Shown here: in pieces, positions 29,967 through 57,525 of the stretch
Numbering within the stretch: position 1 is the stretch's first letter
How the letters are laid out: every line of letters starts with the position of its first letter
Origin: Paracyclopina nana
Taxonomy: Eukaryota > Arthropoda > Copepoda > Cyclopoida > Cyclopettidae
Length of the DNA stretch: 64,000 nucleotides
Assembly (NCBI GenBank): GCA_019096065.1
Contig: JAGUCH010000002.1
Location: 11,544,501 to 11,608,500 of the forward strand
Direction: 5' to 3'
Notes under the pieces: generated by a model
The model's database searches: none
Told to the model about the DNA's origin: nothing
What the model saw: the letters and a program-made list of their open reading frames with translations, nothing else
Program-made: the position numbers and the translations under genes

Positions 29967-32648
29967 ATGGGTGGCAACCAAGTAGACATCCCTCCCAATT
30001 ACTACATTTTCGTGTACATTTGCCAAAATGACGTAGTCGTGGATGAGCAGACCAACTCTGTCCCTTGCAAGCCCTTGAAGAGTGATTCAGTCCAGTCATG
30101 GAATGACATTTCAGCCAACATCTCAAAAAGGGTAATTTGCCACCAGTTTCATTGTCCTATCAAGGCTGACAATCCTTTTCAGGTATTCACCATTGACGAG
30201 TCCAAAGTGGAGGGGCACCATGAGAACAGGAACATAGATGAATTTGCCAGAGATATCAAGGTAATTCGAATGCTCAGGTTGTGGTTCCCTCTGCCTGGCA
30301 ACAAGCACACATTCCTCCAAAGGTTCACGTTTTTCAAGAGTCTCAACGAGTCTGACAAGAAGCACATCAAGGTCAGTATTGTCACTGAGCCTTTGTCCAT
30401 TTTTTGACATTTCTCATTGCAGCTGAATCCTGGATTTGCGTGGAAATCCATCAAGTTGATGAATGACAATCAGAGCATGGATCCAGAGTATTTGGAGTTG
30501 ATCAACCTGCTCAAGAACCAGAGTGATAGCCAGTTTGGTTTCACTGGCAAAGAGCTGAATGAGGAGGAGTTCATCTTTGATCCTTTCCAAAACAAGAGCC
30601 TCCAGCGCAAGACCCAAGCTCAGCTCATGATGGGAGCTCATTTCAGCATAGAAGACCAACGGCTGATTTATAGACATTACTTTGCCAAGACGTTTCCCTT
30701 CTTCTTCCTGTCCGAGGAGAAGTTCAAGAATATGGTGGACAAATTCGGCTGGAATCCAGGCCAAATCAAGGGCCTATTCAGAGCCTTCAGGGGGAAAAGC
30801 ATTCACATCAACCACCTGTCCTTTCCAGAGTTCATTTCTGGTCTGGCCGCTTGTGAGCAAAACACGCCTCACGGAGACGGGTGCGGAGAATCCAGATGTA
30901 GATACATCTTTAGGTATTACGACTTGAACAACAATGGGAAGCTGGATTTTCAAGAGTTTTGCCACATGGTGAGTGACATCCGAGCTTTGAGGGGAGTGAG
31001 CAACTCGCCTGCTGAAGTCATTGCCGAAGCTGACAACAGTGCAAAAGTATTTGAGGCCAATCAGTCGGAGGTCTTGACCATGTCTGATTTCCTCTCAGGA
31101 GTGGGCCAATTAAAGTTCAGGGGAACTTCTGGCCTCTTGCGCAGTCCCAAATCGGTCATTTCTGTGCTAAGTAATTTTGAAGTGATTAAAATGTCCCGCT
31201 AATAGCTTATTATTTTTTTATGCTTTTTTGCAGATGGAAGTGGCGATACGAGTGGAAGTGACGTTGAAAGTCCAGATGTGAAAAGAAGGAGGACTTACAG
31301 TCCGAATTTCGATCCTTGCCAATACTTGAGGGAAACGGTGAGTGATGACCACCACGATGAAATGAGCATTGGCACAATCTCACAAATGCAAGATGATGAC
31401 TACGAATTCGCCACCCACGTAGTGAAGGTGAAGAGGTCCGGGCAAATAATAGACGTTTCTTCGCTATGGGAAATGGAGGGAGGTGCTTGCACGGCCAGCT
31501 CTTCCTCCACTCTCGCTCGTGAGGGCAGCAAATTCAGCTTTGAACGCATGGACTCGATACGGACCTTCAATTCTGGATCCGATGCCAATGAAATGCTACG
31601 AGCTCTGCGATACTTTGAACGCGCAATCCACCCCAAGGATCCCAAGATCAGGGATAAACCCAGCTATTCGTGGGGCCCTGTGGACATGAAGACACTCGCT
31701 ACATCCATCATTGATTTGTGTGGTCAAGCAAGAGCCATTTTTCTGCAAGAACCACGATTGCTGAAGCTGAAAGCTCCAGTCTACATCTTGGGTGACGTGC
31801 ATGGTAACTTTCGTGATTTGGTGTGCTTTGAAAAAGCCCTATGGCGCCTCGGCGTTCCCCTGACACCCACCAACTTTCTTTTCCTGGGAGACTACGTTGA
31901 CCGTGGCAGCAACAGTGTCGAAGTCGTCGCGTATCTCTTGGCCCAAAAAATCATCTGTCCAAATAAATTCCACTTGCTGCGTGGCAACCATGAGCTGAGA
32001 AGCGTGCAGAAGAACTTTACTTTTTACAAAGAGTGCCTTGAGAAATTTGGCAATGGCGAGTTGGCAGATAGTGTTTGGAATGCTGTCAACAAGGCATTTG
32101 ATGCCATGCCCATTGCTGCCATTGTGGACTCCAAGATATTCTGTGTTCATGGAGGCATTCCTCCACCTTGGATGTCTGGCACAGGTCTCGTGTCTTACAT
32201 AGACAGGTATAACAAGATTTCTCTATACTTGACGTAGGTCTAAGCATTTAAATTGGTTTCTCCCCACAGAGTCTCCAATGACATTCGTGATCCGGAAGAA
32301 GAAGAACCACTGGTGTGGGAATACTTGTGGAATGATCCTCTTCCAAACGAGCTCAAGAGCAACATGCCGTCCGAATTCAGGGTGGACAAGTCCGGATTTG
32401 TGCACAACTTTCGCAGAGGCACTGGTCACATGTTCACGGACAAAGCCTTGGATGACTTCTTGACGCGAAACCACTTGTCACACGTGATTCGCGCTCACGA
32501 GGTGAAAGAGTCCGGATTTCAAGTTCAGCATAAGCAAAAGCTGCTTACAGTTTTCTCATCTTCGCGTTATTGCAATGGCTCCAATGACTGTGCTTGTGTT
32601 CTCATCGACAACAAAAAGTTGCGACTCATTCGGTTGGACACCTCTTAA
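29967..32648 (+). CDS. PPP-family Ser/Thr phosphatase with an N-terminal EF-hand region
   Basis: Five exons: 29967-30131, 30183-30371, 30423-31170, 31234-32206, 32270-32648, about 817 aa. Residues 1-330 hold a helical region with one canonical EF-hand loop ([12 protein letters not shown], about 285-296) and a degenerate partner before it. Residues 380-530 are acidic and Ser-rich. The catalytic domain starts near 545 with GDVHGNF (about 554), GDYVDRG (about 586) and RGNHE (about 617), then VHGGI and IRAHEV, the full metal-binding set of PPP enzymes. Calcium regulation is inferred. In PPEF/RdgC phosphatases the EF-hands are C-terminal, so this is a different layout. Intron 1 (51 nt) has no stop and is a multiple of three. 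AATAAA at 32728-32733. Confidence 0.88.
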
Positions 32649-40814: not shown

Positions 40815-43121
40815 TTTTCTTCAAGTTCGTTCACGTTTGCCGCCAAAGTTTCATGCCTTTATTTTGTTGTTATGCTGCTGTTGCTAACGCCGCAATTTGC
40901 TCTGCGCAACATTTTTCCGCCAGTCACTCAACTTATCCAACTTCGGCTCCGCAAGAAATTTCTTCTACTAATATCTTTTTTAAAGCCTATGATAAGGTTT
41001 CGACTTTTAAAGTAGTGACTAAGCAGCATTATTATTGGAATTTCATTTCCAGAAGCAAGTTTTACTTTTAGGCTGGCATATTTTAGAAAAGAAGGGATTT
41101 AAAAAGGTTCCTCGCAGTGCAATGTCAAGGCTTTAATGGTGACCAAGTCAACAATGCCACCAAAATGAATGGCAGAGCTGTAGATCATGCAATTTGCAAC
41201 AACAGATCTCAACTTGAATGTAAATTCCCAAATCACTCAAACTTGGCTATTAAAAATATGCATTTTGCTTTGAACTCTGCAGCAGTGAATTAACAACTGA
41301 CTGATTTCGCGAGATTTTTTTTGCTAATTGTTTTTGTGATTTTGTTTGGTTTAAACAGTTTGTCAACTAGTTGCTATCGGTGAAGGTAGATAATTCATTT
41401 TTCTAAAAGCTCTTAAGAATGCCAACATTTCAGAAAAGCGTCATTTTTTACTTTAAAACTTCATAAGTTACGCAAGTAAACCTTTTTTGCAGGTCATTTT
41501 GAAAACTACCTTTCACTAGTTTGGGTCGATTATGGCTTGGCTGCTGACATGTGATATCCCAAAAGATGCAACATAAACAGCAATATCAAATTGAAAAGCT
41601 TGCCAGAGATTCATCATGGAGATTAGAATTCAAAAATTGCTTAATGACCCATTAACTGTGCGAACTTTTCGAGGTGGAGGAAGTCCGGGAAATCGCGTAA
41701 TTGTCGATGTGACCATGCTCATTATTCGGAAATGCTCGCATTTAATGAGGTAACAGTTGGACGCATCGAACTTTGAATCCGTGAAATGAGCCTACATCTT
41801 TCACCGACTTTTGTGTTTCGCGGAATAAGCTGCGAGTCTATTTTCGGAGGATCCAACTGCAGCCAAATCCACAGGTAGTATATACATTTCTACAGAATGC
41901 GCGTAGTGAGTGTGTTTTTCTGAGTTTCGGCAGCAAAAATGCGTCTAATTTTAGCATGAGGAATGGTCAGTCATTCAACTTTGAGTGCACCTGTAAAAGT
42001 AGAGCGCGCAGTAATTACACCGATTTCTGCTGCAATTTTGGGTCGGTCATTCATTGCTCCTGCTGGGATTTCTCATCATTTTCAAAAGGAAGTAATGAGA
42101 GCGAAAAATGTAATCCTTTGAATGAACCAAAAAAGGTGGCAAGAATTCTGCTTCATAATCGCACAAAATGGCCAGTTTCTTTTGCTCGCCATTAATCTTG
42201 GACAAAAGACGGCATTTTTCAAGCTGTAAATCTTCCCTTTTTTGACACTAATCTTCATAAATAGTGGCCAAACTAAATTGACCTTCATAGCGTAATAATC
42301 ACTTCGTAATGATACGCTGCAAAAGCAGCACCGCATGCATCAATCAAAAGCCTACTTTTTTCAAAGTTAATTTTGCAGCGAACGAAGTTGTGAGTTTTCC
42401 CAAGAAGATTTCAGCGTGGGCTGTTTTTATTATTATTTTTTTGGGAAGGAAAAACTGGCCTTGCACAATGGAGTCAGGAATGCAAAAACATCAATAGTTT
42501 TCCGTTACACCCAAAAGTTCTCACACTAAGAGTTTTTGCCTGGAGGCAAACAAAGTCTTTGTAACGACTGATGCTGGTGAAGAAGAGGAGAAAAATTGGA
42601 CCGAGTTCTGATAATTCCCAAGCAGATGAACAACGAGAAAAATGTCAAAACCTCCAACCGTCAAATCAAGATTAGGAGCGTCTTGAGTGGTTTAAAGCCA
42701 CCTATTACTGAATGCGATGTGGCCAAGCTATTTTCCGGAGCTGCTCTAAATGGGGTCTATTTTTGGTAAATCAATTCACGGGCCAGCTTGCTTTGCCATC
42801 AAGGCTTACGCGAAGGCCATAATTCATTCTTTGATGGGTATCATTGAGATGGGTACAATTTTGGAAATTGCTTCTTGATCTCTCCGGTACTTTAAGGGGT
42901 TGCTAGACCAGCACTGCGGGGGGATCTTGAAGCATCGTTTTCCCATGCATCAACTGATGCTATTGCTCGTGGTGTCATTTTGTGGGATCATAAAAGCCCA
43001 ACTTGAACCGTGCTCTCACCCTTCGACTCAAAATTACTGTGACTATTTTTTCCTGCCCCCTCCCAAACTGATGAACTTTTGATCAGAGTTTCCACGATTT
43101 GTAATTCAGATTTCCAAATTA
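40815..43121. other. Start of the gene-free NRARP regulatory desert
   Basis: The ATR promoter side lies at 40815-40900. The rest has no credible coding exon. One YGTGAGAA motif (42518-42525, minus) lies before the dense Su(H) site cluster begins at 43122. Confidence 0.4.
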
Positions 43122-43435
43122 TTCCCACAGGCGCATTAATTATTCATCGGCGCAACTTTGCAAGCATCATAAGTCTACATTACTGGAGTCATTTTTGCCC
43201 TTCGTGAAAATTCTAATTACTGTAAAGATTATTGGGGATATCGCTTTTTTTTAAATTAGAACCGCACAAACACATAAGCTGTCATCTTTTTTGAGTGGAA
43301 CTCCGAGCATGTACGCAGCAATGGCACAAATCCAAGTCAAGCAAGGTAAAAGGGAAGGGATCTGAAACCAAACCGTCTTTCCCACGTTTGAAGTCCCATG
43401 CACTTTTTTGAGCAGCATATATGAGTTTTCCCACA
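43122..43435. promoter_or_regulatory. Su(H)/CSL site cluster 1 (three sites in 314 bp)
   Basis: TTCCCACA at 43122-43129, TTCCCACG at 43379-43386 and TTCCCACA at 43428-43435 are reverse-strand YGTGGGAA sites. The last directly abuts CACCTGC (43433-43439), a GCAGGTG proneural E-box on the minus strand; Su(H) next to E-boxes is a common layout in Notch enhancers. It lies about 3 kb downstream of the NRARP copy 1 stop codon. Confidence 0.6.
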
Positions 43436-44162
43436 CCTGCACAGTGGGACATCTTCCTCCATAAACATGCTCACTTTTGCGGCTCTACTTGGCAAACAGA
43501 GTGACATATATCAATTACGGATCAATTACTTTTTATCATCGCCCAAATCAAATCAAGATTGGCAATCAAGGCACCGGCAGTAAATAGAACGCTGGGATTG
43601 AGCCATTACAACAAACCTCGATTTTTACTGCCAACAAACAAAGTAATAAACATTTCTGGCTTTTTCTGCTGCAGTCCGCAATAGCAATGCACGAATAGGG
43701 TTTATGCTTTTCGAATTTACGCTGTCAATGAAGATTGATCTGAAAGTGGCATAAAAGTCTTGCGGTTCTTTTGTCCTCCTCTGAATTTCGGTGGCGGCCG
43801 AAACCCCTTTTTTGTTCAAAAGGCTACTGCACCATTATTTAGCTGCGGCTTTTCTCAAAACCTCTAAAGGGAAAATGAAGACCTTTTAGCGAAAGGCTTG
43901 GCAACTCCGCCTCCAGTAAGTCCTTAAAGTCATCGTCATGACTTGCGCAAAAATGCTCCATTTTACTAGATTACTCCAAGCCTTTTATTGAAAAAACTCG
44001 TTTTCTTTTTCGCCCGAGTTACAATTTGTCCCAAATCTACTGTAGCAGAGCCTAATGAGCTCTAATTTCTTGGAAGACTTCTTATCTGGGGATTAATGCG
44101 AAAATGCGGCCCTTTTTGCTGGGAGCCGCGCCAGCTAATCCCGAGCTCCAGTCCAGTGTGAA

Positions 44163-46294
44163 TTCCCACAAAAAGAGAATTTTTTACGACAAGTTATTCT
44201 TGGTTTGTCCAAGCAATAAACATGACAACAATAATTCCCGTGTGCAAATTCCCAGGCTACATTGGATCCCACGATACACTTGGGAAAATGCGGTGGACTT
44301 TACTCGCGCGCAGGGCAAAAAAAATCACTCAGAAACAAATCGTGGGACGAAAAAGGCGGGAAATGATAAGAAAAAATAAAAAAAGGGCCTTTTTCATCGA
44401 GGGGCAAGCGAAAAAAGGGAGATTTTTTAACAAGAGGTAATTTTATGGTTTTGAGAATTCAGCAATGCAATGCGGCAATAAGAAATTCCAGCATACTTTT
44501 TACATCAGCAATGTGTCTCATAAATCTTTCGCCGAAATCAAATAGAAATTCCTCGGACTGGTTAATTTACGGCCTTTTGTTAATTTTCCGAGCAAAGAGG
44601 AAACGATGCTGCCCTAAAAAAGTGAACGCGCGAAATGCTTGACTCCTTTGATTTTTCCAATTTCACCACAGCTTTTTTTTGGACACAATCATTGTAATAA
44701 TGATGTGAATTTTCTCAAATAACTTGAGGGAAAAATTATTTGAACATAAATTGTCTGGCAAAAGAGATGATGGGAAAGACTGGAGCCGTGGGAAAAGACA
44801 ACTTGGACCATGGGAAGAAGAAGAATGAGACGTAAAAGCAATGAGTTGCAAATTCGCCTTCGCATTTATACATATTCCCACTTTGAAGCCATTATGAAAA
44901 TTGCCAATTTAATGGAGGGAAATCGAGGCTTTTTTCTCATGTTTGTCCAAGTTCGATGATTTGAATAAGAAGACGGGAAACTTGATAAATAAAATGTTTG
45001 TTTACACTCTGCGCTCATTTAATCATTTTTACACGACGGGTTCGTTTGACGGAAAAGTGGAATTGAAATTACGTAATCAGAAGTGAGGCTCACGTGAGTC
45101 AAGACTGAAAAGATTTGCCACCCACACCTCAGTTTAACGAATTTTTTGGCCCTTTTGACATGAAATACCATGGGAAAGTTCAGCAAAGGTGACTTCCATG
45201 ATTCAATGAAGATTTTCACATATGTGAACCCAACAATGCAGGCCAAAAGGTCAAGCTTCGCGCGCAAAAAGGATTTTTATATGCAACGGCTTGGGCATAA
45301 TGTAACATAAAACATGTGACGGCTTAACATTTTTTTCTGATGCGCAAATTCTGGTCAAACCCAAATATTTGAGAGGGGATCATAATTGTCGTGTTTATGC
45401 AAGTTATTAAGGATCCATAAATATGTTTGTGGCGTCAAGGGATAAACATTTTTGAGGCTTAAAAGTGGCTAATGCTAGAATTATGACTCATTATCACTCA
45501 CAAGTGGCCTAAACTTTTCACATTTTCCAATAACAGCAAACTCCTTAATGGCTTTTTTGAACTACATTAGAGTGGAGCAACCAAAAAATATTTTAGGCAT
45601 TCAAAACAAGCGACAAATAAAAAGATCTTATTCGGTGGTCATCTTAAGCGAAAAAAGAAATAATGAAGACATAACGCGCGTTAGTAATTATTTGGCTATG
45701 GAAATCATAAATATGCAAGCGAAAATAAGACATTTTTGAAAAGCTTCAAAATGGTGAATGGAGGATTGTGGGCACTTTGTGCCATTCCAAAATGCTAAAT
45801 TCTCACTGTGGGCACAAAAAGTTGATTTTTGCTGTAAATGTCACCCACCTCAGTTCCCACGCAGGGATTATGCAGTGGTATTTCAGTAGAATTTGTCCGC
45901 AGCTAGCTTTTTCAAGAGGAGCGGCTAATTTTTCATTCTTGAGCTGGAGGAGCATGCTGCGAGGGTCTCCAACCCAAAAGTTGTGACTGGCTCAAAACGC
46001 TCAAAATAACTCGTCTGTGACGAGTCAGCAAAGTAGTTCCAGATGTCAATCCGGATAAAGAGTTGGCAAATGCGTGGAAATTGAAGGAAAATGACACACG
46101 AATCGTTCCAAACACGCAATGCAAGCAGCTCAAGTTGGGATTATTTATGTATGGGCTGCAAAATGAGCCAGCGTGCTGTGTAGCCAAAAGAGACTGGCCA
46201 CCACACCAAGGTAAACTGAGCTTGGTGCGGTGGGAAAATGTCTAGGGAACCAGGTACAAAAGGAGTGAGCAAGTGTCCAGTATCATCGTGAGAA
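44163..46294. promoter_or_regulatory. Su(H)/CSL site cluster 2, downstream of NRARP copy 1
   Basis: Strict sites: 44163-44170 (TTCCCACA), 44787-44794 (CGTGGGAA), 45854-45861 (TTCCCACG). Related sites: CATGGGAA at 44809-44816 and 45169-45176, CGTGAGAA at 46287-46294. No coding sequence lies in this stretch; short ORFs here are not supported. Confidence 0.55.
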
Positions 46295-46340
46295 AGTTGA
46301 AAATAGATTGCATATAGTATAAAGCGTCACATATTTATTG

Positions 46341-46982
46341 TCATGAGCTTTGATCGTGGTGGCCTTTGCGAAGGTCAAGAATGTACACAAGCAGATCGGA
46401 GTGTCCGGAAAAGGCGGCAATGTGGAGCGTGGAGAAGCCGTCTCTGGTTGTGAGTCGATGATCCGCACCGAACTTGGTCAAGACTTTGGCTAATGACAAT
46501 CGGCCTTCGAAGCACGCTTGTTGCAGAGCCGTTCGGCCTTCGCCGTTGTACTGGTTGATGTTGATCCTTGTCGAGTGTCGGCTCAAAAAGTCCTCGACCT
46601 TCTCCGCCTGTCCTTCGGCTATCACAGATTCAAATTGCAATTGGAGTTGAGGGTCCTTTGCCATTGGCCTTTGGCAGCGCACCTCATAGGGTAGCGTGGT
46701 GACCGGGCTCAGCGGTTGCAGCCTTTCCTCATACTTGTTCGCAAACTTTGGCTTTTTGCTCACGAACGCCGTTGGCCCTTGGTCGATGGGTCTCTTCTTG
46801 GGCTGATTATCACAGATGCTGGCGCTCTCGTCGGAGCTGCTGACGGACATGTTGGTCACTTCGGCGGCCTCGTCAAAGTCGAGGCTGTTTGTCGAGGACA
46901 TGGGCGAGGAAGGCTCCGAGAAGGCTGGCGAGTAGACCTGCCCGTGAAAATGGTAGTTTTGCACGCGGATCTCTGCGGACAT
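46341..46982 (-). CDS. NRARP: NRARP-like Notch-regulated ankyrin repeat protein, copy 1
   Basis: A single exon of 213 aa, starting at ATG 46982 (the in-frame codon further upstream is TTG). The C-terminal half (about residues 110-205) carries ankyrin repeats matching NRARP, for example NGEGRTALQQACFEGRLSLA then LTKFGADHRLTTRDGFSTLH and IAAFSGHSDLLVYIL. NRARP is a small Notch target that joins the Notch intracellular domain/CSL complex and promotes its loss, giving negative feedback; that role is inferred from vertebrates. Unlike the 114-aa vertebrate protein, it has a 100-residue N-terminal extension with GQVYSPAFSEPSSPM and FANKYEERLQPLSPV, both kept in copy 2. AATAAA (46339-46334) lies right after the stop, so the 3' UTR is very short. 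CSL sites surround the gene. Confidence 0.88.
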   Translation of the reverse strand: MSAEIRVQNYHFHGQVYSPAFSEPSSPMSSTNSLDFDEAAEVTNMSVSSSDESASICDNQPKKRPIDQGPTAFVSKKPKFANKYEERLQPLSPVTTLPYEVRCQRPMAKDPQLQLQFESVIAEGQAEKVEDFLSRHSTRININQYNGEGRTALQQACFEGRLSLAKVLTKFGADHRLTTRDGFSTLHIAAFSGHSDLLVYILDLRKGHHDQSS

Positions 46983-47012
46983 GTTTGCTCTTTCCAACTA
47001 ACTGAGGATTAA

Positions 47013-47391
47013 TTCCCACACTCGACGTTGGCGCCGGCCCGTGAGAATTGGGGATCGGTGGGCGCGTTGGCGCTGAGTTTTCGCCAAACGGCGAGTCGCG
47101 GCGCGACGCGCCGTTCGGACGTTAAGGGAAAGCACTTTGACGCACTAATCATCCTGGGATCCGCAAAGTCCCGAATTTCCCATCATTATTATTTTGTGTT
47201 TATTTCCGGCCGCTGAGCGCCGAGCGCCGCTGCTGCGGGGGTCACGTGTCCTCCTCCGCTTGCATGGATCAAAACTCAATTACGGGATGCGGAAAAGTTG
47301 ATCAAAAAAGTTCCCACGGGGAATTCCAAATATGATAAGGAAATTACGTCTTGCCTCTGCGCATGACGTGCGGTTGAGGATTTCATGGGAA
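47013..47391 (-). promoter_or_regulatory. GC-rich promoter of NRARP copy 1 with Su(H) sites
   Basis: Within 410 bp upstream of the ATG: TTCCCACA at 47013-47020, CGTGAGAA at 47040-47047, TTCCCACG at 47311-47318 and CATGGGAA at 47384-47391. The segment 47030-47260 is strikingly GC- and CpG-rich compared with the window and holds a CACGTG E-box (47243-47248) of the kind bound by bHLH/Hes factors. The first two sites are opposed and 19 bp apart, but point outward, not in the canonical head-to-head paired arrangement. Confidence 0.65.
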
Positions 47392-47935
47392 CGGCTTTTA
47401 ACGCGATTGATCAATGCCCAATTTCGCGTTTAATTAAAATAGCCTTACGCGCATTCAGGTTTACTTTTGAATCCTTGGCCATCATCGACTGAACGATCCG
47501 CGGGTCGTTCATCAATAACTGGGCCTTTTTTTAACGATGACGAACTCGTTTGGGCCGAGGTTTTGGCAAGGTGTCATCGAGATCGTTTCGCATGCAAAAA
47601 TGTTCGGGTGGGAAAAAAACCGGTTCTCAATGACATGTCAACCGTCGCATATTTTCTTTATTGAGAGTGGCGTCAAAAGCCATCAATATTATTATAATGC
47701 AGTGGCATTGGAATGCGCGGATTCAAACGCGCATAATTGACTCGCTGCGGTAAAGAGCTTTCACACTGGGCTGCAACCCCTTTGAAAACGCAGGATCGGT
47801 CCAGCGTGCATGTGTATGGATTTTAGCGGCCGCGGCGCTCGTCGCCTTTCTGTCGTCAGATCGTTTAACGGCTGCGTGGAATTTGCGTCAATTTTTTGAA
47901 AAAAGAGCCATGCAGCTGCTTTCCGTCAAATGGAG

Positions 47936-50260
47936 TGTGGGAAAATTCGTTGCTACACATCAACGGCGCGTGCCAACAGTCAAACATCTGCCCTCACTAG
48001 AGACCCTCTGTAAACCGGGAAAACATGCGACCTTTCGGCCTTTACATCTAAAAGGAGGTGAGTTTCTGCCCTCAAAAATGGGCTCAAATCCCATTTTCAA
48101 CTATTTGTAGTTTTTTCATGAAGAGTCTCTAGCCAACCTCGATACATTTACCCTCTTCTTTTGATTCAATTAGTCCGCGGCGCAATATTTTGTTCTCGAG
48201 GACATTTTTCACGCGCGGCGTCATCGAGACCTTCCGTTTGCTGAATGCATGTCATTGGCCTTGATTTTCCAAGATGGCTGAAATGATGAGCGATATCAAA
48301 TAGCTCTTTTTTCGGGGTGTCCATCCATTCCACTTCCTCCCTTCTAATTACTTTCCAATTACTGGATGTTCCCACAGATTGGCCCCCCCTTAAAATATTA
48401 GGAGTTTAAAACTGCCTAGTTATCTCGAAGGACATCAGCAGCAACGGCTTTGTAAGAGATTACTCGTGGGAATTCCAGGCTGCGCAAGTTCATAAAAGTT
48501 TTTCCAAAGGTCACCTCGCTCATGCGGCATTCCGAACTCTTTTATTCACGCTGCTGCCGTTGGGAATTTTCGCATATTTCTCCCCGTTTCAATGCGGCTA
48601 ATTGAGCGTGAATAAAGGCCAATGCAAACAACAATAAACCAGGAATTTGGCGGCTTAAAAAGTGACCATATCGGGCGCGCTCAGCTTGAAGAATTGCATT
48701 CAAATCACCCATATTTCAGCGTGCCATGCACGAATCGGGTTTGAAAATGCTCCATTGCTGGAGTCAGCTGAGGTGAAACGCGTAAAATTGGTGGCTCAGC
48801 GAGCGAGAAAAAAAGCTGACTGTGGCTTCTTCCCTGATCGTTTGTGGCTAATTTTTATCTGGAGCCGTCGAGAATTCAAAGATTGCATAAAGTAGAAATC
48901 CGTGGCTGGCTTGTGAGAATGCTATGCCAAGGCTTTCATCAATTCCAAATTCTGCAGCTATGGAAGGCATTTCAAATGCTCACAAAATTCACAAATAGTT
49001 ATGGTATACTCACATATCGTTCCTGGCTTAATTACCAAAAACGGTTTTTCCCAGGGGGGCAAATTCCACCGTGTCAGTTGATTGAAATCAAAACAAACCT
49101 CTCTGCCTGCTTTGCACACACTCTCGCGCACATCCAGCCCCGAAAGGGGAAAGAATGCTTGAGAATCTTATGCCAAAAAAAAGCTTGAATATTTTCTCTT
49201 TTCAAGCCTCAAAAGTTGTGATCCATGGTGGTGACAATGCTACTTCTGCCATGCAGTCGACCAGAATTGTACTGGATTTCAACAAAGAATTTCGTTGGCT
49301 TGGCCAAAATTCCTTCTTCTTTTTAAAGCGCTCTGAATTCCTTTATGGACTCTTGGCTTTCAATGCATTCACCAGGATTTATGGTCTTGAAAAATGATGC
49401 CGTAAATGGACATAATATTGCATTCAGAGCATATAAGCTTTTTTTCCTGGGACATTTCAAAATTCACTGCGAGGAAAACAGCTCCAGGGTGGCTTCTTTT
49501 AAAGGTCCAACGCCCTTCCTGCGTCATGGAGGATGAGCACAAAGTTAGCATCAATTATTTTGCATTCAACAAGTTGTTGGCTGTTGCAGCACTCATAAGC
49601 ATCGTGGGAATATCCCTGTTTGTCTCCTTCAAAGTGACGATTCCTTATCTAAGATTGAATCTTTTTTGTTGCCACTTATCTCCAATTACGTTGCCATAAT
49701 TCAATGAAAAAGCCGAGCTTGATGCGTTATTATAGCCTGGAATTCTATCTGCAATTCCTTTGCATTGGAGATAATGTGAGCAAAAAATGGCCTTTCCCAG
49801 GAAATGATTGACCGCGTTGACCTCTGCGTTTTTACCTATGCACATCTCTCCACGGATATACCATGTATACCTGATCATTATGATGTGTGACCATTTGACC
49901 CACAACCAAAGGTGGGTGGGAAGAGCAGCGAGGAGTGCAGGGAAAAACCGTTGGTGACCCAAGCTGTGTGTGAACTATGTGCTTGAAAACTTCTTCGTTC
50001 TCACTCCTCTCTCAGCGCAGCAAGAGAGAGGGATATTGTGTTACTGCAATATGGCATAAGGAATTTCAATTTCATGGAAACTCTCACTTGACTATTTGTC
50101 ATCTGCGAGCGGCTAAAAATTGGTTTTATTTACCTGGCTGCTGTTGGAGTTTGACCTTTTGGCCCTCAGAGCTTAACCTTAGGATTAATTTCTAAGGCGT
50201 GAGCAGAGAAAGAAAGGTCATGATCTTTTCTTCTGCATGACTCAAAAGGAACCGTGGGAA
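47936..50260. promoter_or_regulatory. Su(H)/CSL site cluster 3, between the NRARP copies
   Basis: Strict sites at 47936-47943 (TGTGGGAA), 48369-48376 (TTCCCACA), 48465-48472 (CGTGGGAA), 49603-49610 (CGTGGGAA) and 50253-50260 (CGTGGGAA), plus TGTGAGAA at 48912-48919. A GCAGCTGC E-box (about 47912-47919) lies 17 bp before the first site. The DNA around is non-coding. Confidence 0.6.
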
Positions 50261-51256
50261 TTGTCTGATATCAAAAGATAAACGGTCACTATAGTGGCAT
50301 TTCTAAAGGAATGTAATTGAATCGTGAGCCTACAAAATGGCTAGATAGATCTTCCATCCCATTCAGAGGTGAGATCAAATATGCCTTTTGTCATCGGCCA
50401 AAAAAGCACGCATTCTATGCTCCAGATTCCAATTCATGCATTTATGTGACATAATGTTTCTAAAATCAACTTTTTAGCCAGCTTTCGTAGCATACGCTAT
50501 GTTTAAGTTACATGAAAATCCGACAGAGGTGAATTTCGTTTCATATTAGAAGAGGTCCCAGATTTGTATAGGACCTCTTGCAAGCTATTAACCATAAGAA
50601 TTCAGAAATGATGGCAATTTCTGGCAACATTTGAAATAGCATAGTATATTTTGAACAGGCCTTTGAGGCGTGTAATGCACTTTTTGGCGTTATTGGCAAG
50701 AAGCCATTAAGCCAAATTCAATTCAGCTTTGAGCATGGCAAACTTCAATTAAGCGAGAGAGTGGAAGATTTCAATTTAGACAAACAAGCCAGGGAGTTTC
50801 AATGCATGACGATGATTATCTGCAGCTCGGTCAAAATTATCTCGATATCTTTTTATAGCCTCTCATTTGTCCCAAACTGTTAAGCTAAGCAGGCATGCTG
50901 ATGTTTTGATGGAGCAGATTTTATGGACTGACATGGCCAGCTACTGGAAACTGGTAATTTGCACTTGGGAGCTCAAAATTGGCCCCCTTAAACCATCTCT
51001 GGAGAATTCTCATCATCATCATCGTTCAAGCACTTTTAACACTACCACTACTGCTCTGCTACTGCCCAGCCCTGGCCTGCATCTGAAAACACGCACAGCC
51101 AATTTAAACACCCAGTTTCGCGGACTAAACTTCACCTACTTTCCAGATGGCCAAGCCGTAAATTGGCCAAAAAATGCTATGCTACCTCATCAAATCGCAT
51201 AATAATACATAATAGAGGGAAACTTCTTTGGAACCGAGAGTGCCAAAAGCATTAAT

Positions 51257-51732
51257 GTCCTGTTGATGTACGCCCCCAACTCCTTAGGAAAATGCACGAA
51301 AAACTCCACAAGGAAAGGAGACAAATTGTCTTATGAAAAGCGCCAGCTCAAGCTAAAACAATCAGATTGACTTTAAGCCAGCTTGAAAGGAAACAAATCT
51401 AATTTTGGCTATTTTAAAGTGCTCCACATGTTAGTCCTTTTGAGCAAAATCAAAAGTTAAATTTCATCTTTTATTAAAGAAACGTGATGAAAGATAGTTT
51501 TGTCTAGAAATATGCTGAAAACCATGCGACAAAATAGCAAAAATTGCCGTTAAAAACGCTGCTCGGACCCAAGCTGAACTCGTAGAGTGGTAGTCAGCAA
51601 CAGATTCACTTTTCCTTAAGACAATTTTTTCCATTCCTTAAGGCTTTCTTAAAATACATGAACAGCATAAGGCCATTTTGAGGTGTTTTTCGTGCATTTT
51701 CCTAAGGAGTTTAGGGCGTACATGAACAGGAC
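51257..51732. mobile_element. 476-bp MITE with about 50-bp inverted ends
   Basis: The left arm 51257-51307 (GTCCTGTTGATGTACGCCCC onward) is the reverse complement of the right arm 51681-51732, with a few differences; both contain ACTCCTTAGGAAAATGCACG. There is no ORF inside. It lies in the middle of the only long gap (50.3-52.4 kb) in the series of Su(H) sites. Confidence 0.8.
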
Positions 51733-52383
51733 TACATCTTCTGAAATATGATTAAGTGATTTTGACGACCGCTTTTTTTCTGTTTAACTCAACTGCTATG
51801 AGAAAAATTACGTAGTAGAAGCCAAACAAAATTATCAAGACTTCTTGTCGGCACCTTTTTTGCTCTCTGGTTTCCTTTTGTTTGACCTCCCCGCGCGCGC
51901 ATTCAAGCTAAATTGAACGAGCAAAAATAGGAGTAGCCAGGGACATAATACAGTAGTAGTTTGGGTTAGTATGGGCGCGCAGTAATTACCATTACGTTAC
52001 TTTGTAACTGATAAACACACAGACCCTGTAATTAGCCTTTTTTTGACCAGCTACAGGGCAAAACCTTAAGTAATCTGGTGGCAAACTAGAGGCATGCAAA
52101 GGTTAACCGTGAGAAAATCAAGTTTAGCTGTGGGCATGGCCAACATTTAGCGCAAAGACGCTGCCTGCTTGTCAGCATTTTTTGCCACGAAAAATATCTC
52201 CTCCACTTTTAATTACGTGGAAATGACCAAGAGTATCAGTTTTATATTAACGACCAATTACCAGGGGAAAAAACTGATCAGGATGCATGAGTTGAAGATT
52301 TATGTAGCAGACGAGCACAATTCATTAATCCTTTGTATTCAGATCATTTAGAGGGACCATAAAAAATTGTGTATTACTACCAG

Positions 52384-54534
52384 CATGGGAAAGTTGATTG
52401 TTGCTACTATTATTGGCGATGAAAAAGCTGCATGCAGGTAAAAAAAAACATGTACGATCAAAATATAATTTTTGCTCCTCATGTTCCATTTTCCCACGCA
52501 TCCGGTCACGTCTGTGTGGGTCAAGCTGTTTCACACACAATTTTATGTGCTTCTACCTGCACAGCGTGGCCAAATGGCTCTGGGCCACATCTGGCAACTA
52601 AGCACTTCTGCCCAGATTCCCCCATTGTGAATTTCTACGCTCTCTTGCATGTGTAATGTAGAAGTAAAGACGATTTGCGGGGCTTCCAATTCAGATCTAT
52701 TTTCTAGAAGAGAAGATTTATAATTAGTTCCCGGCTTTTGCACTTACTAATAGGCATTAATACACTAATGACGTAGATGGCGCTAGTGCAGTAGGGTTGT
52801 GGGTCAAGGGCCGAGCCGCGTTTTTTAAGGCCCCATGGAATGCTTAAAGTTCCTCCATTACACCAGGTAAATTAATATGTGACGAGGGGAGAAGATCATT
52901 TGTTTTTCGTTGTTGATGAAATTGGGGTTTGCCCACCCCATGCAACTAAATTCTGGTCCAAGCTATGCATCATCATATGAGATGATAACCATCGTGGGAA
53001 CGTCTCACGGTCTTCTGAGCACTGAGCTGCTCGTCTTATCAACCTGAAGTGATCGACTTAAGCCTATTTTGGCAGCCCCTCATTATTGACCAATATTTTT
53101 TGCACCTGATGACATTGTCGATAAGATGAATGACATGCGATATTATGGCCGCGATGACCACCCAGGTGAGCCGTTGATTGATCGGGACATTGGAGATAGT
53201 CAGGGAATCCAATTTTGGCCCAAAAACGAACGATAATAGCCTCGATGATGAACCAGTTTTCCACCTCTTCTTGGGACTTGTCTCAATTTTAAAAGGTTGA
53301 GTTTCCCCCACATCATGAGGCCTGAAAGCTGATATAGGCACTGTAAGCTCTGGTCATTCATCATCATTAGAGTTCATCTATGAAAGGCATGGAATTATTT
53401 ATGGTTTGACCGGAATTCTTCCCACAACGCATGGGTGGGAAAAAAACGTCGGTTCTCACACATCATCTAAAACCATTGTGGCTTGAACAGCGATCTCACC
53501 CCCGCCCTGGAAATGCACGTATGGTGTACCTTACCTTGATGTTGATGATGGAGTTTGGAAAGGGCCATAGAACGCGAGGTGATGCAACGTTGACACAGGC
53601 TCATTCTAACTTGAGTGTTTGCTCAGCATCTTCTTATCAAACATTCAGAGATTTCAGCGAACATCGTGGGAAATTATTTGAGCCTTATCAAATGATTCCT
53701 TGTTTGCCTTTGCACGTCTCTCATAATGCTGAAATAATGCCAAAACGTCCAAGTGCCCAAAATAGCCAATTTTTCAGATTTTTATCGACAAAAATGTCCA
53801 CATGCAAAAAAGCCCCCTTTTGAAGTGCATTTCTGTCAATTTTCTTTTTTTTAAATTGGTTATGCGGAGCTCGTAATTGAAGAGTTTTGGAAAAAAAATA
53901 TTCTAATTAACCAGATAGAAAAAGTCGCATGCAGTCAAACTGTGATCAAATAAACCCACCCTCTGTTTAAGTGCCTTGTCATAAGCTGTTCATGCATGAC
54001 ATGTTTGTGAGCGTGGGATGGGAACTTTTTGAGCACTTCAAAATTCCTCAATTTTGGGTATAGAAGTGTAAACCTCACTCAATCGCAAGAAGCTGAAACG
54101 TATCTTCTGCTAGAAGAGCTTGGAAGTTAGGTTCCCACTGTGCACGACAATGGTGTATAAGGATGATGGGAAACAGGGAATTCTCAAGTAGCTCCTACTG
54201 CTCCTCACAGCGGATGTTGATTTCTCTTACAGAAAAAAGTAACACAAAAATATGTATTTTTTGGGCAAAATGTTTGTTTGCATAACGCATTCATCAAATA
54301 AGCTATGAGTGCTTTAAAAAATACTGTAATATGTTAACATGGTTGTGGTAATAGTAACAATAAACAATTCTTTTTTGCTGCCATAATTAACTGCTTATGT
54401 GGGATTGAGCATGAGAAGTCATTTGACGGGCGAAATTCAGGATTATCTCTTCCCAGCAGGGCAAAGTATGACTGTTTGTTAAGGTCATGTGACAGGAACT
54501 AGTGGGGGCACAGGAAATCTGTGAATTTCTCACA
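52384..54534. promoter_or_regulatory. Su(H)/CSL site cluster 4, downstream of NRARP copy 2
   Basis: Strict sites: 52491-52498 (TTCCCACG), 52993-53000 (CGTGGGAA), 53419-53426 (TTCCCACA), 53665-53672 (CGTGGGAA). Related: CATGGGAA 52384-52391, TTCTCACA 53453-53460 and 54527-54534. Around 53419-53460 three sites (one a GGTGGGAA variant at 53434-53441) lie within 42 bp in alternating orientation. Confidence 0.6.
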
Positions 54535-54935
54535 CTCCAACTCCTCCCACCCATAGTTGGGTTCTCATCATTGAATCATGACTAAACCAAACAAAATGGA
54601 CCTTTAACCCATGTGAATTACTCGTTTCTCTATTAGCAATGAAATCTTGGGAAATACTCGGTGGCTTTGAAAAAAACCAACCTTTCCAACCCCTTCACAA
54701 GAATCATGCTAACCAATGAATTTTTATATACTATCAAGTGTTCCTTTGGCTGGGAAAGTAGAGATTCAGTGAAACCTTGAATAGGCAACATAAAATGCTA
54801 TCTGTAGATAAAGTAATCGATTAGTTAAAATCATGAGGTGACTATGTTCATGGCTAGATTGCTGTTTATTCAACAAATAACATTAATCTGAATGCATATC
54901 ACAGACTATAAAATAGTTGGAAGGAAACACATGTG

Positions 54936-55550
54936 TCAATGTTTCAGGCTCATAATGTATGTCATGACACTGGACTGTCCTGAAAAGACAGCCAGATGGA
55001 GTGTAGAAAAGCCATCTCTGGTTGTGAGTCGATGATCTGCACCAAACTTGACCAAGACTTTGGCCATCGACAATTGGCCTTCAAGGCAGGATTGCTGCAA
55101 GGCTGTTCGGCCTTCACTGTTGTATTGGTTAATGCTGATTTTAGTCGAGTGTCGGTTCAAAAAGTCTTCAATCTTGGTCACCTGGCCTGCAGCTATCACA
55201 GATTCAAATTGCAGTTGGAGTTGAGTGTCCCGAGTTTTTGGCCTTTGGCAGCGTACCTCACAAGGTATGGTCAGGACAGGGCTCAGTGGTTGCAGCCTCT
55301 CTTCATACTTGTTCGCAAACCTTGGTTTTTTGCTCACATAACAAGGTTCCTCCTCACCAAATGGTCTTGATGGTGAACTGCAAGAAAGATTAATGTTAGC
55401 AAACTGGTCAATTATGTTGCTCGTGATCACCACTACTGACCTTGAGGGCGAGGCTGGTTCGGACGCAGCCGATGAGGTCACCGACATGGGCGAGGAAGGC
55501 TCCGAAAAGGCTGGTGAATAAACTTGGCCATTAACTTGGTAGTTAGACAT
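54936..55550 (-). CDS. NRARP: NRARP-like Notch-regulated ankyrin repeat protein, copy 2
   Basis: ATG at 55550 and stop at 54936. A 63-nt intron (55440-55378) is very likely: donor AAG|GTCAGT, branch-like GCTAAC, pyrimidine tract and TTGCAG. Spliced, the protein is 183 aa; because the intron has no stop and is a multiple of three, retention would add 21 residues in frame. The ankyrin part closely matches copy 1 (EGRTALQQSCLEGQLSMAKV, FGADHRLTTRDGFSTLHLA), as do the N-terminal GQVYSPAFSEPSSPM and FANKYEERLQPLSPV blocks. It has the same strand as copy 1, 8 kb away, so this is a tandem duplication. In the 3' UTR: a minus-strand TGTGAT (K-box-like, 54903-54898) and AATAAA (54870-54865). Confidence 0.87.
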   Translation of the reverse strand: MSNYQVNGQVYSPAFSEPSSPMSVTSSAASEPASPSRSVVVITSNIIDQFANINLSCSSPSRPFGEEEPCYVSKKPRFANKYEERLQPLSPVLTIPCEVRCQRPKTRDTQLQLQFESVIAAGQVTKIEDFLNRHSTKISINQYNSEGRTALQQSCLEGQLSMAKVLVKFGADHRLTTRDGFSTLHLAVFSGQSSVMTYIMSLKH

Positions 55551-55623
55551 GTTGCTCAGCACAGGGAAGTGTGTCCAGTCTTACTGATGAGAAGCTTGGG
55601 TTAACAGCAGAATTAGGCGTACC

Positions 55624-55631
55624 CGTGGGAA
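55624..55631 (+). promoter_or_regulatory. Su(H)/CSL site in the NRARP copy 2 promoter
   Basis: CGTGGGAA, 74 bp upstream of the ATG of copy 2 and so near the expected transcription start. It is the outermost strict site on this side of the locus. Confidence 0.6.
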
Positions 55632-57525
55632 TCGGGCAAAGTTGGGCAAGCTCTGAGCCTGTACAGCCGAGCAGTGAGACGCTAACGCTCGCCTGCGCCC
55701 CTAACCACTACTATCTTGAAGTTGTTGTTGTTCTGCTTCTTTTTACTACCTGGATTGGGACGCCAACGCCATCCTGGAATGTTAATTGGGGGCTCTTCTC
55801 AGACACAGCACTATTTTGGGCTCAAAAAGCTTCTTTATTTTCACTTTACAGCTCTGGTGGGAAAATCTTCTTTTTCAGCTCACTTTTTGATTCCACTCAA
55901 GTCAAATACAGTGTCCTTGGAGAAAGTCTACTTTTTGCCTTGTTAAGCTTACACTAGCAACACCATATAAGTTCACTTTGCAGCATTGTTAAACGAATTT
56001 TGGAATTATGATTCCTTATCATTTAACATAAAAAATGAGGACGTTAAATAGTCACTTTAAGTAACTGGGTTAGTTAAGTTACTTGCGGATTAAAATTAAT
56101 TGGTGGAGTGCAGAAGCACTTTTTGTCAAAAAGCCAGTTCGGCATAAAAGTCTTGAACTATTTGAGCCACATCAGTACGCAATTATAGCTTTGAAAGTAC
56201 GGACCGATAACTTCTTTATGAGATCAAGTACTGCGAAATTGAGGGACATTCAGGGGAAATCTTTATTTACTCAGTTCCTTAAAGCATCGTGAACAATCAT
56301 TAACTTTATAAAGTTATGATTAAAACACGCTTTATTAGAGAAATACGTAGCAGCAAACCTAGTTTATCTACTCAAATGATGCTCAGGCAAACCAGTATCT
56401 GAAGGCTCACCCATTAATGATTACCATATTTGCCGATATTTGCAACCAACATTGGTATGCAAGCCAGCAAAATTATATTTTTAGAAACTTTTGTCATTTT
56501 CCCATGCCCGCGCACTCAGTGGGGGGAAATGGGTAATTGATGTCTGACAGCTCACTTAGTCCTGTGGAATGCTGATGGATCAAAGCGATATTTGTTTACA
56601 TTTTCGAATTATGAGCAGGAAGTGAAAGGGAAATTGGAATTTAATTAACTGCCAACAACAGGAACTCGAACAAAATGCCACCGCACAGTGGATCAAAAAG
56701 CCGATTTTACATGCATGAGAAATTACGTCAAATCGCAGATTTCTGATTTTAGCACCCATTTTCAGCTTCTAATTTATAGGACTTCTAGGCTACCTAAAGA
56801 GCACAAATTAATGTTTATTGACAGATAAAGGTTCAAATTTGGTGAGGAAAACATAACTTTTGGGCAAAAGTTGACTTTGAGGAATTCAGTAGAACAGCAA
56901 CTTTGCACAATTTGAGGAAAAATGAAATCTCCCATAACTTTTGATTCCAAACGACTCCAATTGAGTGACCAAGTCAGGGAAGTCAAGCTTATAGCATAAA
57001 TTGATAATCCACCAGAATTGGCTGCTCTTACTTGCTCTCCCGGGTGCCAGAATGGCATAGTTTTAGCTTACTGCTAATAAGAAAAAGGTGCTTCGTTGAT
57101 TTCGCGACTTTTTTCCGTGCGCGTGAAATCGGCAAATAAACCCACTGTGCACCGCTCATTAAATGTAAGGGTTGACAAGAGCAACAAGCTAATTTCAAGT
57201 TTAACATTCTGAACTTGGAGAGCTTGATTACATTTGAAACACTGAGGAACTTTCAAAAATAATCATTTGAAAGCAATAAAAAACGAATTGGCTTACATTT
57301 ACGGCTTACGTAGCCATCTCATTGCATTTTGCATCAGCCTTGAACTTGTCTATCACATCCGTTTGAACAGCTGGTACTCAAAAAGGATCCTGCTGCATTC
57401 TGGACTGAAAGGAAATATTTTAATGTTACTTTCAAATAAATGCATCAAAGACGTACTTTAGGGAATTAATCACATTGGGGACTTAGCTTGAAATACCCTC
57501 AGGTTCTTGACTGATGCCCGTTCAT
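55632..57525. other. Gene-free upstream region of NRARP copy 2
   Basis: No supported coding exon. One weaker CSL-like site, TTCCCATG, is at 56499-56506. The right edge is the 3' side of the MYND gene. Confidence 0.4.

Follow-up and report, generated by a model that had tools for sequence, protein, structure and literature searches.

In vertebrates, NRARP is a Notch-induced target and feedback inhibitor (PMC8229355, excerpt), and the mouse gene Nrarp is among the targets that depend on paired CSL sites, placed head to head at a spacing of 15–17 nucleotides (nt) (PMC7561103, excerpt). In Drosophila, the autoregulatory socket enhancer of Su(H) and the m-alpha enhancer hold several high-affinity YGTGDGAA sites, five per fly module (PMC3390367, excerpt), and the Enhancer of split complex, E(spl), in which duplicate genes are clustered in DNA rich in Su(H)/CSL sites, is reported, as far as the excerpt of PMC4575448 goes, from insects and crustaceans only. 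Here we analyse a window of 64,000 nucleotides of the copepod Paracyclopina nana (positions 11544501–11608500 of contig 2, in a 91.95-Mb assembly of 10 contigs), in which two tandem NRARP genes, NRARP-A and NRARP-B, stand in a dense field of CSL-type sites (positions 43122–55631 of the window). The density and specificity of these sites, the identity of the genes, the Notch and CSL genes of the genome and the recurrence of the site word near E(spl)-like genes point to a Notch-responsive regulatory field of the two NRARP genes, a reading to which we give a probability of about 0.8.

The locus shares with its vertebrate counterpart the NRARP gene itself, whose ankyrin part matches PDB chain 6py8_B over residues 8–108 of 114, but it differs in having two tandem copies of 204–213 amino acids (aa) with a conserved N-terminal extension. 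Moreover, the sites are paired at mouse Nrarp and single in this field (PMC7561103, excerpt). Duplicate genes clustered in site-rich DNA recall the E(spl) complex (PMC4575448, excerpt); here, however, the genes are NRARP and not bHLH-Orange or Bearded, and none of the 7 Hairy_orange matches of the genome falls in the window (Bearded genes were not searched for). Several high-affinity sites per module are likewise found in the fly Su(H) and m-alpha enhancers (PMC3390367, excerpt); here, 18 strict sites are spread over 12.5 kb, around another gene. It would thus be a Notch-feedback locus of a known kind, and what is new is its layout, single sites spread over a tandem NRARP pair that is, among the relatives compared, lineage-private. 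In the open-access literature searched, judged mainly from listings, we found no paper on NRARP regulation in arthropods.

A dense field of CSL-type sites around two NRARP genes

An exact motif scan of the window recovered all 18 YGTGGGAA words (strict sites) listed in the initial annotation, 11 of them CGTGGGAA and 7 TGTGGGAA. The six YGTGAGAA words claimed there are present as well, but the window holds seven, the one at 52108 having been overlooked, and the one at 42518 lies just outside the interval. The two genes and the sites of the field, all of the latter located by motif scan, are the following.

46341–46982, minus strand: NRARP-A, single reading frame, 213 aa (open reading frame, Pfam Ank, 6py8_B NRARP, alignment)
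54936–55550, minus strand: NRARP-B, single reading frame, 204 aa (open reading frame, Pfam, pairwise and genome search)
43122–43129, minus strand: CSL-type site TGTGGGAA, downstream of NRARP-A
43379–43386, minus strand: CSL-type site CGTGGGAA
43428–43435, minus strand: CSL-type site TGTGGGAA
44163–44170, minus strand: CSL-type site TGTGGGAA
44787–44794, plus strand: CSL-type site CGTGGGAA
45854–45861, minus strand: CSL-type site CGTGGGAA
46287–46294, plus strand: CSL-type site CGTGAGAA, just downstream of NRARP-A
47013–47020, minus strand: CSL-type site TGTGGGAA, start 31 bases upstream of the NRARP-A ATG
47040–47047, plus strand: CSL-type site CGTGAGAA, close upstream of NRARP-A
47311–47318, minus strand: CSL-type site CGTGGGAA
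47936–47943, plus strand: CSL-type site TGTGGGAA
48369–48376, minus strand: CSL-type site TGTGGGAA
48465–48472, plus strand: CSL-type site CGTGGGAA
48912–48919, plus strand: CSL-type site TGTGAGAA
49603–49610, plus strand: CSL-type site CGTGGGAA
50253–50260, plus strand: CSL-type site CGTGGGAA
52108–52115, plus strand: CSL-type site CGTGAGAA, the overlooked one
52491–52498, minus strand: CSL-type site CGTGGGAA
52993–53000, plus strand: CSL-type site CGTGGGAA, with its left flank matching 49595–49610 at 15 of 16 bases
53419–53426, minus strand: CSL-type site TGTGGGAA
53453–53460, minus strand: CSL-type site TGTGAGAA
53665–53672, plus strand: CSL-type site CGTGGGAA
54527–54534, minus strand: CSL-type site TGTGAGAA
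55624–55631, plus strand: CSL-type site CGTGGGAA, start 74 bases upstream of the NRARP-B ATG

Six strict sites lie between NRARP-A and ATR, 11 between the two NRARP genes and 1 upstream of NRARP-B; the NRARP coding frames hold none of the 18, and a strict site lies no more than 75 bases from the ATG of either gene. The remaining 51 kb of the window contains three YGTGGGAA words (5692, 32314 and 34592), which are exonic in appearance, as had been proposed: the first falls in a TPR-containing frame, the last in the ATR frames, and the one at 32314 downstream of the phosphatase frame, about 45 bases past what looks like a splice acceptor, with an open continuation by eye.

In the whole genome YGTGGGAA occurs 4969 times, which gives 0.68 expected per 12.5 kb (12,510 bases), against the 18 of the field (27-fold, Poisson P 7e-20), and CGTGGGAA occurs 1552 times, with 0.21 expected and 11 found (52-fold, Poisson P 8e-16). 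The maximum of YGTGGGAA in 300 order-2 Markov sequences generated from the non-coding field was 4, and the 6 YGTGAGAA of the field compare with 1.0 in simulations. As a further reference we used the first 5.41 Mb of contig 1, where CGTGGGAA is found at 100 places, a series that covers both strands and agrees with two 10-kb stretches that were read (loci L040 and L041). The sliding 12.8-kb maximum was 4, compared to 11 in the field, and in 423 bins of 12.8 kb the word was absent from 337, and found once in 76, twice in 7, three times in 2 and four times in 1. Thus, the genome counts, the simulations and the contig 1 bins exclude, for the DNA counted (genic and intergenic together), a density no higher than in the rest of the genome, an outcome that had been named beforehand as refuting the proposal.

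The word also emerged from an unguided count, in which the field with its coding sequence masked was compared with a third-order model of the field itself. CGTGGGAA showed the lowest Poisson P among the 8-mers (11 vs 1.05; 613 words seen at least 3 times) and GTGGGAA among the 7-mers (24 vs 5.2; 1489 words seen at least 3 times). A background of 131 kb from the same genome was made up of the window outside the field, the DNA flanking the window, the two single HES/HEY-type loci and one half of the CSL locus. Compared to it, CGTGGGAA was enriched 38-fold (11 words) and TGTGGGAA 24-fold (7 words); the one-base neighbours with the highest ratios, CGTGAGAA (31-fold, 3 words), TGTGTGAA (20-fold, 2 words) and CATGGGAA (17-fold, 5 words), are all CSL-like, and in this comparison the reversed words were absent from the field. 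The base directly 3' of the strict word is G in 1 of the 18 sites.

It is hardly credible that the clump arose from chance, base composition or repeats. It is true that the word is unremarkable genome-wide (4969 YGTGGGAA compared to 3476 for the reversed control, and 1552 CGTGGGAA compared to 1820), and that one pair of sites agrees at 15 of 16 bases. However, the Poisson probability and the simulation maximum of 4 against 18 contradict chance, and chance and composition are excluded at the sequence level by the word counts, the 131-kb background, the contig 1 bins and the simulations; as for repeats, no tandem array was found in 40–58 kb, and apart from that pair the flanks of the 18 sites are unlike each other. 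One duplicated block carrying the sites was also considered and rejected, the non-coding flanks of NRARP-A and NRARP-B sharing only six matches of 15–27 bases (E up to 1, best 0.001).

Self-comparison and genome search revealed one dispersed element in the interval.

51253–51732, no strand assigned: dispersed element, one copy, about 420 bases long (element to about 51671)

Strict sites are nowhere further apart in the field than around this element, which was perhaps inserted later. After it, at 51678–51732, its first 55 bases are repeated in inverted orientation, a feature not seen in the scored relatives. Relatives of about 420 bases with 84–91% identity were found on 9 of the 10 contigs, in at least 89 stretches (40 of 545 candidates scored). 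As to other motifs, forkhead-like and TAATTA words are candidate local activator sites in 42900–55700, and fly-type E-box partner sites (RCAGSTG) were not raised in the field (3 vs 6.0 expected).

The NRARP pair and its neighbours

In Pfam, both NRARP frames match ankyrin-repeat models only. A profile of 16 relatives matched the NRARP chain 6py8_B in one stretch, over 8–108 of its 114 residues, with 105.7 bits; by whole-sequence score this chain was tenth, the nine entries above it being long or multi-repeat proteins of the ankyrin or designed ankyrin type, of which the top-ranked one reached 31.7 bits in its best single stretch. When the window NRARP protein was used as lone query, 6py8_B ranked 21st, again in one stretch (83.2 bits). 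The two proteins, of 213 and 204 aa, exceed the size of about 114 aa, with no other parts, taken as a mark of NRARP, owing to an N-terminal extension. In NRARP-A this extension spans about 110 residues, with conserved GQVYSPAFSEPSSP and KYEERLQPLSPVTTLP blocks, and is followed by the ankyrin repeats. It is common to 11 of the 14 metagenomic relatives aligned, whereas the 114-residue chain 6py8_B is without it, and its strongly conserved blocks are GQVYSPAFSEP and LQPLSPVTTLP. The SP motifs SPAFSEPSSP and LQPLSPVTT are strongly conserved in the extension of this NRARP type, and by eye LQPLSPVTT resembles a phosphodegron-type sequence.

NRARP-A and NRARP-B are 63% identical, and a search of the genome returned no other NRARP-type frame, its third match, on contig 3, being weak (5.5e-6). 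In a tree of 64 of 111 relatives (the first 65 matches, minus one shorter than 150 aa) they form a single branch with support 100/98, so that the tandem duplication, as the tree indicates, is not shared by any other lineage in the comparison. The initial annotation had named two NRARP genes, and both are indeed NRARP-type, by the one-stretch profile match, and tandem duplicates.

On one side of the pair lie the ATR frames, at 33.7–39.3 kb, and then frames up to about 40.8 kb, some of which have no Pfam match; on the other side there are frames without Pfam match at 57.5–58.6 kb, followed by a Ras-family gene at 59 kb. Since 6 of the 18 strict sites fall between NRARP-A and ATR, the sites could serve a neighbouring or an undetected non-coding gene and not NRARP, but we consider this highly improbable. 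In fact, 22 further stop-to-stop frames of 85 codons or more lie between 41 and 57.5 kb, and all of them stay below the Pfam cut-off, although short exons and non-coding genes would escape this count. ATR, moreover, is a DNA-damage kinase for which, to our knowledge, no CSL field is known. A hidden further gene was rejected as well, the 22 frames giving two weak matches below the cut-off (FlhC and DUF1158).

The same word at other Notch pathway genes

The genome contains one CSL gene, whose DNA-binding exon matches the PDB chains 5e24_E (Suppressor of hairless, the fly protein) with 290 bits and 3nbn_A (human RBPJ) with 265 bits. For the Notch receptor, one NOD match (32.7 bits) was found, in a frame with EGF-like, LNR and ankyrin parts recognised by eye. 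Beside the CSL gene, where its 5' part should lie, 6 strict sites occur in 5.2 kb (contig 6, 6014149–6019362, locus L036), and none of the 6 has a head-to-head partner. These six sites recall the autoregulatory Su(H) enhancer of the fly (PMC3390367, excerpt), and autoregulation of CSL through them is possible.

The 7 Hairy_orange matches of the genome are on contigs 7, 1 and 4. Five of them, in 97 kb of contig 7 (4370526–4467356; loci L009, L010, L013 and L028), belong to a cluster of bHLH-Orange genes that are E(spl)-like by eye where read, and we used this cluster as an internal control. The 110 kb around it contain 21 YGTGGGAA (18 of them CGTGGGAA), compared to about 5.9 expected from the genome mean, and 13 YGTGAGAA. 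In all five genes a strict site is located 413–898 bases upstream of the Orange match, and the nearest strict site has the same orientation relative to the gene in all five. A head-to-head partner at 15–17 nt, with up to 2 mismatches, accompanies 6 of the 21 sites (mean of 1.18 in shuffles, none of 2000 reaching 6), and 4 of these 6 are the sites nearest their genes. The CSL excess at the cluster rests on a targeted count; in the unguided count other recurring words, probably a repeated element, lead there, and not the CSL word. Strict sites are few around the two single HES/HEY-type genes, which lie apart from the cluster: the 20 kb read around each hold 2 for the gene on contig 1, and 1 for that on contig 4.

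Two side observations concern these genes. The C-termini of four E(spl)-like proteins could be read, one of them assigned to its gene by position only, and three end in WRPF and one in WRPW. WRPW is the usual Groucho-binding end, and the WRPF proteins possibly have a changed co-repressor contact. On contig 1 (7100281–7100303, locus L032), about 2 kb from a Hairy_orange match, two CGTGGGAA stand tail to tail, 7 bases apart.

Because the word is concentrated also at the E(spl)-like cluster and beside the CSL gene, its reading as CSL sites is well supported by the patterns of sites. It is very unlikely that the real reader is another factor with an overlapping word, for instance a zinc-finger protein reading TGGGAA. 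The motif counts cannot name the protein, and CATGGGAA is raised too (5 vs 0.82 in simulations); but the second CSL form, YGTGAGAA, is also raised in the field, and the same word occurs beside the CSL gene and, in part with the spacing of CSL pairs, at the E(spl)-like cluster, so that it appears hard to assign to any protein but CSL. As regards the likeness to the fly E(spl) complex that had been drawn, it persists in its logic alone, since this genome has a separate E(spl)-like cluster and pairs are over-represented in that cluster, not in the NRARP field.

Single sites and a candidate feedback loop

In the NRARP field a loose partner at 15–17 nt was found for 2 of the 18 sites, no excess over the shuffle mean of 0.92 (P 0.24). 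The field was therefore rejected as a sequence-paired-site (SPS) target, two head-to-head sites 15–17 nt apart not being over-represented. The strict pair YGTGRGAA-N14-18-TTCYCACR occurs in two places of the genome, C2:13082774–13082806 and C8:920218–920248, and this search found none in the window or in the E(spl)-like cluster; thus, in every E(spl)-type pair one half is imperfect. The gene and its probable role fit the vertebrate case, whereas the site layout differs, mouse Nrarp depending on pairs and the sites of the field being mostly unpaired.

A tentative idea, which we regard as rather doubtful, is that two site grammars coexist in one genome, with the E(spl)-type effectors under cooperative head-to-head pairs and the duplicated NRARP brake under a wide array of single sites that act independently. 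If so, the brake would track Notch dose gradually and the effectors would switch sharply, the reverse of the mouse, where Nrarp is pair-dependent.

Several observations weigh against a Notch-responsive field. The paired layout of mouse Nrarp is absent, as described above. The sites are unevenly shared, NRARP-B having one strict site upstream. The CSL excess is not alone, forkhead-like RYAAACA (25 vs 8.4) and TAATTA (12 vs 3.8) being raised as well in 42900–55700, compared to simulations; the reversed forkhead word, however, is raised too (18 vs 9.1 in simulations), so that a forkhead reading is not specific. Finally, on contig 1, one locus (L040) has 4 YGTGGGAA in 2 kb upstream of frames of a channel that is DEG/ENaC-like by eye, and another (L041) has 6 CGTGGGAA in 23 kb (the 10 kb read hold 2), beside a transporter that is EamA-like by eye. 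As these clumps stand beside genes without evident Notch tie, a clump alone is no proof of a Notch target.

The initial annotation had proposed a multi-enhancer Notch-responsive locus with duplicated feedback genes. This gained partial support, from the NRARP-type tandem duplicates and from the CSL word at the E(spl)-like cluster and the CSL gene; the separate enhancers are putative, and binding, activation, repression and feedback are drawn here from known pathway biology. Cleaved Notch and the single CSL protein, presumably with Mastermind, would bind many dispersed single CSL sites, lying 5', 3' and between the NRARP genes, and would activate both NRARP-A and NRARP-B. The NRARP ankyrin proteins would in turn bind the Notch-CSL complex and lower its output, in a direct negative feedback loop, a step that rests on vertebrate work (PMC8229355, excerpt). 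Without signal, the same CSL sites would keep the NRARP genes down by default repression.

Alternatively, the sites might activate NRARP little, their main effect being to store the Notch-CSL complex locally, as a sink, or to repress by default. We hold this to be unlikely, although the sites, mostly unpaired and scattered over 12.5 kb in either orientation and to either side of NRARP-A, would suit it. Accessible paired sites have been proposed as a sink in mouse, but that proposal concerns paired sites, which were not found in the NRARP field (PMC7561103, excerpt). Moreover, both genes have a strict site close to the ATG, and NRARP is a known Notch target in vertebrates (PMC8229355, excerpt).

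The arrangement of sites and genes suggests, instead, that Notch signalling switches on its own brakes at the NRARP pair. If this is true, the NRARP feedback loop extends to an arthropod lineage, in which the brake would have been doubled in a lineage-private manner, and P. nana would offer a natural contrast of paired- and single-site Notch target architecture within one small genome.

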